DNA of 64,000 bases, taken from positions 59,142,927-59,206,926 of the forward strand of contig OY997642.1 of NCBI GenBank assembly GCA_963921795.1, in the 5' to 3' direction. Both the position numbers and the translations under genes were made by a program. Below the pieces are notes generated by a model. The model was not told the origin of the DNA, ran no database searches, and was given only the letters and a program-made list of their open reading frames with translations. The DNA comes from Nannobrachium achirus. Its lineage: Eukaryota; Chordata; Actinopteri; Myctophiformes; Myctophidae. Below are positions 35,708 to 55,374 of the stretch, in pieces; the first letter of the stretch is position 1; the number at the start of each line of letters is the position of its first letter.

Positions 35708-35744
35708 ATGATGGCTGTGGCTTTGTTTCTCATCCTTCTGACGC
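35708..35744 (+). CDS. Exon 1: signal peptide
   Basis: [12 protein letters not shown] ends in a GTAAGA donor (35745), phase 1. Two adjacent ATGs are available. No second copy of this exon exists upstream of module B, where a LINE insertion lies instead. Confidence 0.75.

Positions 35745-55374: not shown

Follow-up and report, generated by a model that had tools for sequence, protein, structure and literature searches.

The described proteins closest to the one considered here belong to two families. Chymotrypsinogens A and B and CTRL are members of peptidase family S1A; chymotrypsinogen is secreted, is activated by cleavage after Arg15 and retains its propeptide through a Cys1-Cys122 bond. 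Other proteases of this type, among them plasminogen and plasma kallikrein, carry accessory domains N-terminal of the S1 domain. The second family is that of dermatopontin and the haemagglutinin/amebocyte aggregation factor (PF14704; DERM), whose described forms are, to our knowledge, single-domain extracellular proteins.

Proteases of the cnidarian tryptome likewise have accessory domains N-terminal of the S1 domain, and the main text of the paper that describes them suggests that trypsin-associated domains are gained and lost between lineages (PMC6767649); the string 'derm' is absent from that main text. If domain partners come and go in this way, a DERM partner would be unusual but would not make a new kind of system, and DERM in the accessory position is what would set such a protein apart from the known modular S1 proteases. 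A tube-anemone venom transcriptome study (PMC7460484) contains the words dermatopontin and peptidase S1 once each. A full-text literature search, judged by titles and the starts of abstracts, had no DERM-S1 protease protein among the matches listed, which is weak evidence, and predicted gene models with this architecture may well exist in animal protein databases. Collections of viral contigs (one pattern match, no relatives) and of prokaryotic genome contigs (five pattern matches, no relatives) say nothing about fish. The component families are thus known, and their combination is a possible novelty.

Here we analyze a 64,000-nucleotide stretch of contig OY997642.1 from the fish Nannobrachium achirus, hereafter the window. 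Its sequence suggests that the locus is probably one protein-coding gene, whose product would be a secreted zymogen that resembles chymotrypsinogen and begins, after the signal peptide, with a dermatopontin region.

Results

Gene model

A preliminary description of this DNA had placed a secreted dermatopontin-serine protease fusion gene at 35708-55374 on the + strand, and this span is exact: the ATG lies at 35708 and the stop codon ends at 55374. Between these points are 15 exon-like segments, all on the + strand, in the order A1, A2, A4, A5, AP1, B2, B3, B4, B5, BP1 and BP2-BP6:

35654-35660 (+): TATA box TATAAAT, 54 nt 5' of the ATG; the sole TATA[AT]A match in 35401-35708
35708-35744 (+): exon A1, start codon and signal peptide, with a phase 1 donor; hydropathy maximum 3.37
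36183-36273 (+): exon A2, DERM exon 2 of unit A; its counterpart at 42093-42189 is 84.6% identical
37998-38150 (+): exon A4, DERM exon 4 of unit A; Pfam DERM match both spliced and unspliced
38404-38450 (+): exon A5, DERM exon 5 of unit A, with DRRWRFQYC; donor adjoins a long (GT)n tract
39152-39270 (+): exon AP1, first copy of protease exon 1; its frame clashes with B2
42093-42189 (+): exon B2, DERM exon 2 of unit B, the counterpart of A2
42479-42662 (+): exon B3, DERM exon 3, with DRVW..C; internal frameshift, no unit A counterpart detected
43630-43782 (+): exon B4, DERM exon 4 of unit B; Pfam DERM match both spliced and unspliced
47580-47626 (+): exon B5, DERM exon 5 of unit B, with DRRWKFEYC; donor adjoins (GT)n
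48828-48946 (+): exon BP1, second copy of protease exon 1, with Cys1, Arg15-Ile16 and IVNG
49242-49330 (+): exon BP2, with Cys42, His57, Cys58 and LTAAHC
49664-49745 (+): exon BP3 of the protease
51159-51339 (+): exon BP4, with Asp102 in NNDVRLL, Cys122 and Cys136
51916-52043 (+): exon BP5, with Ser189, Cys168, Cys182 and Cys191
55213-55374 (+): exon BP6, with Ser195 in GDSGG, Cys201, Cys220 and the stop codon

Thirteen of the 15 segments, all except AP1 and B3, splice into one open chain (A1-A2-A4-A5-B2-B4-B5-BP1-BP2-BP3-BP4-BP5-BP6) of 461 codons and a single terminal stop, encoding 461 amino acids. Every internal exon of this chain is preceded by AG and followed by GT, and the phases are compatible; the consistent phases reported earlier hold on condition that AP1 and B3 are left out. 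When the nine exons between A1 and BP2 were treated as optional, 30 of the 512 in/out combinations were open, and the 461-residue chain was the longest. Searching its translation with PF14704 and PF00089, as the preliminary description had proposed, matched both families (Pfam DERM, 1.2e-36, in two stretches; Pfam Trypsin, 2.9e-66, profile positions 1-220 of 220), and the signal peptide claimed there is borne out by A1, with its start codon and hydrophobic stretch. Raw, unspliced + strand frames give the same families (DERM, 4.3e-10 and 1.5e-11; Trypsin, 8.2e-24 and 7.4e-09), so the matches are independent of the splicing chosen. When the exon translations were compared by tblastn with the window on both strands (E 0.05), the matches beyond the listed exons were short internal-repeat matches among the DERM exons and two that we took as chance. 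One of these covers eight residues of BP2 at 29108-29085 (E 0.010), the other 20 residues of B3 at 61912-61971 (E 0.043).

AP1 ends in phase 0 and B2 requires phase 1, so reading AP1 into unit B breaks the frame; a chain using AP1 linearly with unit B, B3 omitted, had 11 stops and was rejected. Including B3 and omitting AP1 was rejected as well, for a frameshift and 11 stops. The frame of B3 changes between about 42587 and 42592, and skipping this exon preserves the frame (phase 2 to 2). We ranked splice sites with a rough score built on approximate vertebrate base frequencies taken from general knowledge. By this score the AP1 acceptor is weak, in the top 25.7% of AGs in the region versus the top 10.5% for BP1, and its donor is good; the B3 splice sites score well. 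AP1 is not singled out for skipping, however, because the A4 and B4 acceptors, which the model uses, rank below it (top 30.8%). That AP1 and B3 are skipped is therefore an assumption of the model and not a prediction from the splice sites, unless the frameshift in B3 is a sequence error.

The protease domain

Bovine chymotrypsin(ogen) A is the best PDB match to the protease (7.5e-77), with 128 of 243 aligned residues identical to bovine chymotrypsinogen A. The alignment confirms the complete S1 protease described earlier, with His57, Asp102 and Ser195 kept along with Gly193, Asp194, Ser214 and Trp215; also kept are Arg15, Ile16, Ser189 and all ten chymotrypsin cysteines. With the triad, Gly193 and a full-length PF00089 domain, the protein falls in peptidase S1A, and it has the residues of a chymotrypsinogen-type zymogen, the Arg15-Ile16 activation site and a conserved Cys1-Cys122 pair. 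It is thus like chymotrypsinogens A and B and CTRL in its Cys1 propeptide, Arg15-Ile16 activation, triad, ten cysteines and Ser189. The exon layout, a signal exon and then an intron before the propeptide, is one that we take to match chymotrypsinogen genes, with CTRL close. Chymotrypsinogen, however, lacks DERM, whereas the fish gene has one or two DERM cassettes between the signal peptide and the propeptide.

The substrate pocket also differs. Residues 190, 192, 216, 226 and 228 of the fish protease are Ile, Asn, Ala, Ser and Phe, where chymotrypsinogen has Ser, Met, Gly and Gly at the first four, so that the chymotrypsin-specificity set Ser189/Gly216/Gly226 is replaced by Ser-Ala-Ser, plus Ile190. 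Because Ser189 is kept but Ile190, Ala216 and Ser226 are in the pocket, a shift from large aromatic to smaller or unusual P1 residues is predicted; with low confidence, the pocket would be narrowed and would favor smaller residues. One study uses the 189/216/226 triplet to guess specificity but cautions that several fish proteases are poorly predicted by it (PMC4646688).

Shortened DERM modules

Both DERM modules are shortened, covering about positions 49/54-149 of the 152 in the Pfam profile. Neither spans the whole of PF14704: exon 3 was undetected in unit A and is frameshifted in unit B. A blastn search of B3 against the A2-A4 intron revealed no exon 3 remnant, with alignments of at most 21 columns and a best E of 0.45. 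Each cassette scores 69.5-73.6 bits against a curated cut-off of 28.3, and the first part of B3 reaches 26.7 bits (E 7.2e-06), under that cut-off. The DERM motifs noted earlier are present as DR.W..C in A5, B5 and B3, and these, with the Pfam match, are what the modules have in common with dermatopontin and the haemagglutinin/amebocyte aggregation factor; they differ from such proteins in being shortened, in lacking a usable exon 3 and in being fused to a protease. A shortened cassette has five cysteines, an odd number, and the two together have ten. A PDB search for a DERM structure gave one chance-level match (E 0.87).

The DERM block has phase 1 on both flanks, so A1 can join BP1 or AP1 directly, and either joint yields an ordinary chymotrypsinogen of 265 amino acids. 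A symmetrical phase 1-1 block of this kind is what shuffling of exons into the intron after a signal peptide characteristically leaves. The A5 and B5 donors both read CAG/GTGTGT and run into GT-repeat tracts of different length (about 38451-38561 and 47627-47661), which could change cassette splicing.

Duplication of the cassette

DERM exons 2-4-5 and protease exon 1 are present twice, in the same order, with DNA identities between units A and B of 84.6% for exon 2, 81.7% for exon 4, 78.7% for exon 5 and 84.0% for protease exon 1. Similarity between the units starts in intron 1, just past A1 (35758-35883 with 40643-40765), and stops just beyond protease exon 1. Because this cassette occurs twice, the DERM-protease fusion must be older than the duplication. 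Within the window, tblastn of exon translations did not find protease exons 2-6 for unit A, and a scan for hydrophobic ATG-starting peptides did not find a signal exon for unit B. Internal tandem duplication, deletion between two tandem genes and assembly collapse would each produce this layout, and under any of the three the sequence places the DERM-protease juxtaposition before the duplication.

An assembly collapse, in which two complete tandem DERM-protease genes were merged via repeat tracts, is unlikely but still deserves some weight; it would leave the fusion real and overlaps with our preferred reading. Gene A would have lost its 3' half and gene B its 5' end, and the B3 frameshift would be a consensus error. 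The parts that are missing, protease exons 2-6 of A and the signal exon of B, are what one tandem-gene deletion removes, and the units lie amid repeats and long tracts of dinucleotides. However, the sequence bears no direct sign of a collapse, the window contains no N, and an ordinary internal tandem duplication accounts for the layout equally well.

Constraint on the cassettes

Between the two units, overall dN/dS was 1.04 (bootstrap 0.61-1.97), with values of 0.91 for exon 2, 1.15 for exon 4, 0.75 for exon 5 and 1.16 for protease exon 1. The overall value gives no sign of simple purifying selection, and we therefore turned to a test based on profile scores. The 60 bases 5' of exon 4 are more alike between units (89.3%) than exon 4 itself (81.7%), and those 5' of exon 5 slightly more alike (80.7%) than exon 5 (78.7%); AP1 and BP1 are 84.0% identical versus 55-59% in their 60-base flanks. 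Both frames stay open across 71 differences, for which the simulated chances of no stop were 0.018 and 0.028.

With 53 differences between them, the two DERM cassettes still reach 71.8 and 73.6 bits. We simulated neutral change by placing 53 random substitutions, the observed number, in a cassette, conditioned on no stop (n=18, nine from each unit). The simulated cassettes scored 15.8-44.3 bits, with means of about 27 (from A) and about 29 (from B), and 18 of 18 fell below the real ones. We also built hybrids of A that carried, block by block, the residues at which B differs (eight of nine blocks tested). If all four gains are added they total 7.3 bits, for an ancestral score bounded near 79 bits. 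Had the cassettes lost half as much as the simulated ones, their ancestor would have had to score about 94 bits; this estimate assumes roughly additive scores and linear loss. Decay of both cassettes from a better-fitting ancestor is thus unlikely, and the pattern reads, at the level of sequence, as a core that is held while other sites change freely or positively.

These results bear on whether the locus is a once-functional fusion now decaying, left unreadable in frame by default splicing after an internal duplication or tandem-gene deletion. The frame breaks from AP1 to B2 and on inclusion of B3, the undetected exon 3 of unit A, the protease exons 2-6 and signal exon not found in units A and B, respectively, and the overall dN/dS all fit such a history. 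We nonetheless consider it improbable, as thirteen exons are otherwise intact across 20 kb, catalytic and disulfide residues are kept, and the cassettes, unlike the neutral simulations, keep their family fit.

Alternative use of the cassettes

Units A and B could instead be mutually exclusive, making two single-cassette zymogens, A1-A2-A4-A5-AP1-BP2.. or A1-B2-B4-B5-BP1-BP2.., that differ in their linkers and carry IVGG or IVNG as the activation sequence. Chains of 362 and 364 amino acids for these forms are both open, and reading from AP1 into B2-B4-B5-BP1 breaks the frame. Against this, the A form must skip five consecutive exons and the B form four plus B3, and we regard this reading as doubtful.

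DERM and protease exons as one probable gene

We return to a single fused gene as the preferred reading. The central claim of the preliminary description, that DERM and protease form one protein, stood insofar as the two sets of exons go with each other: AP1 and BP1, the two copies of protease exon 1, each come after DERM exons in compatible phase. The exact protein is uncertain, because its DERM modules are not full-length and two of the exon-like segments need skipping. Scanning for ATG-starting hydrophobic peptides of 10-40 amino acids followed by a phase 1 GT, we saw nothing convincing as a signal exon in either interval from DERM to protease (A5-AP1 and B5-BP1). Four of the weak candidates were variants that share an ATG at 39081, within GT repeats, and the remaining one, at 48303, has a poor donor. 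Two separate neighbors, one dermatopontin-like and the other a chymotrypsinogen gene, which only the gene model would connect, are very improbable and were rejected, for although each domain occurs alone elsewhere, here protease exon 1 lies directly behind DERM exons twice, in phase, and neither copy has a convincing signal exon of its own.

Discussion

We propose that a phase 1-1 DERM module was inserted into the signal-peptide intron of a chymotrypsinogen gene. The main product would be the 461-residue protein with two shortened DERM modules, made by skipping AP1 and the frameshifted B3, and an alternative product would be a single-cassette form of 362-364 amino acids. The zymogen would be secreted and then cleaved after Arg15 by a trypsin-like enzyme, and the Cys1-Cys122 bond would hold the DERM region on the activated protease; because Cys1 and Cys122 are conserved, such lasting tethering is plausible. 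By binding ligands in the matrix or on cell surfaces, the DERM region would confine proteolysis locally, like the accessory domains of other modular S1 proteases; from the dermatopontin and amebocyte aggregation factor family, we infer by analogy that these ligands could be matrix or cell-surface glycans. In cleavage preference, large aromatic P1 residues would give way to smaller or unusual ones.

In a bolder and rather unlikely version, a digestive chymotrypsinogen gene would have acquired a lectin-like DERM cassette by shuffling. The cassette would then have been duplicated, its exposed sites diversifying while the core was held, and a gut enzyme would have become an effector aimed at surfaces or pathogens, with an altered cleavage preference. 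Accessory domains decide where an S1 protease acts, and DERM in such a role would extend the modular-protease repertoire. The locus would also be a vertebrate case in which exons were shuffled symmetrically (phase 1-1) and then duplicated internally, and the attached enzyme could serve as a reporter for testing what DERM modules bind.

Other features of the window can be noted. An apparent terminal exon of IFT57, with acceptor and stop codon, lies at 63691-63872 (+); it matches PF10498 at E 1.5e-07 and 31.2 bits, below the curated cut-off of 40, over profile positions 330-360 of 360. Whole-frame Pfam scans of the + strand at E 0.01 or 0.05 gave no other IFT57 exons. The remaining exons may lie outside the window, in which case the protease gene would be nested in an intron of IFT57, or may be too short to detect, or the exon may be a stray copy. 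A hAT transposase dimerization remnant (PF05699, 2.7e-09) is found at about 13978-14130 (+), and an ALKBH8_N Pfam match (1.5e-10, one frame) at about 31409-31504 (+); ALKBH8_N matches in fish genomes are often retroelement-derived. The BP3-BP4 intron contains about 1 kb of nested inverted repeats (49939-50947), an apparent long foldback element whose arms form three pairs of 120-185 nt, 95-98% complementary. Three intronic copies of a small palindrome-like element (AAATAGCAGATCTACAAGCTCACA...), at 37001-37076, 37377-37452 and 52414-52489, resemble a miniature inverted-repeat transposon, and tandem arrays occupy 53139-53680, 54108-54460 and 58880-59936, with units of 129, 176 and 21/41 nt, respectively.
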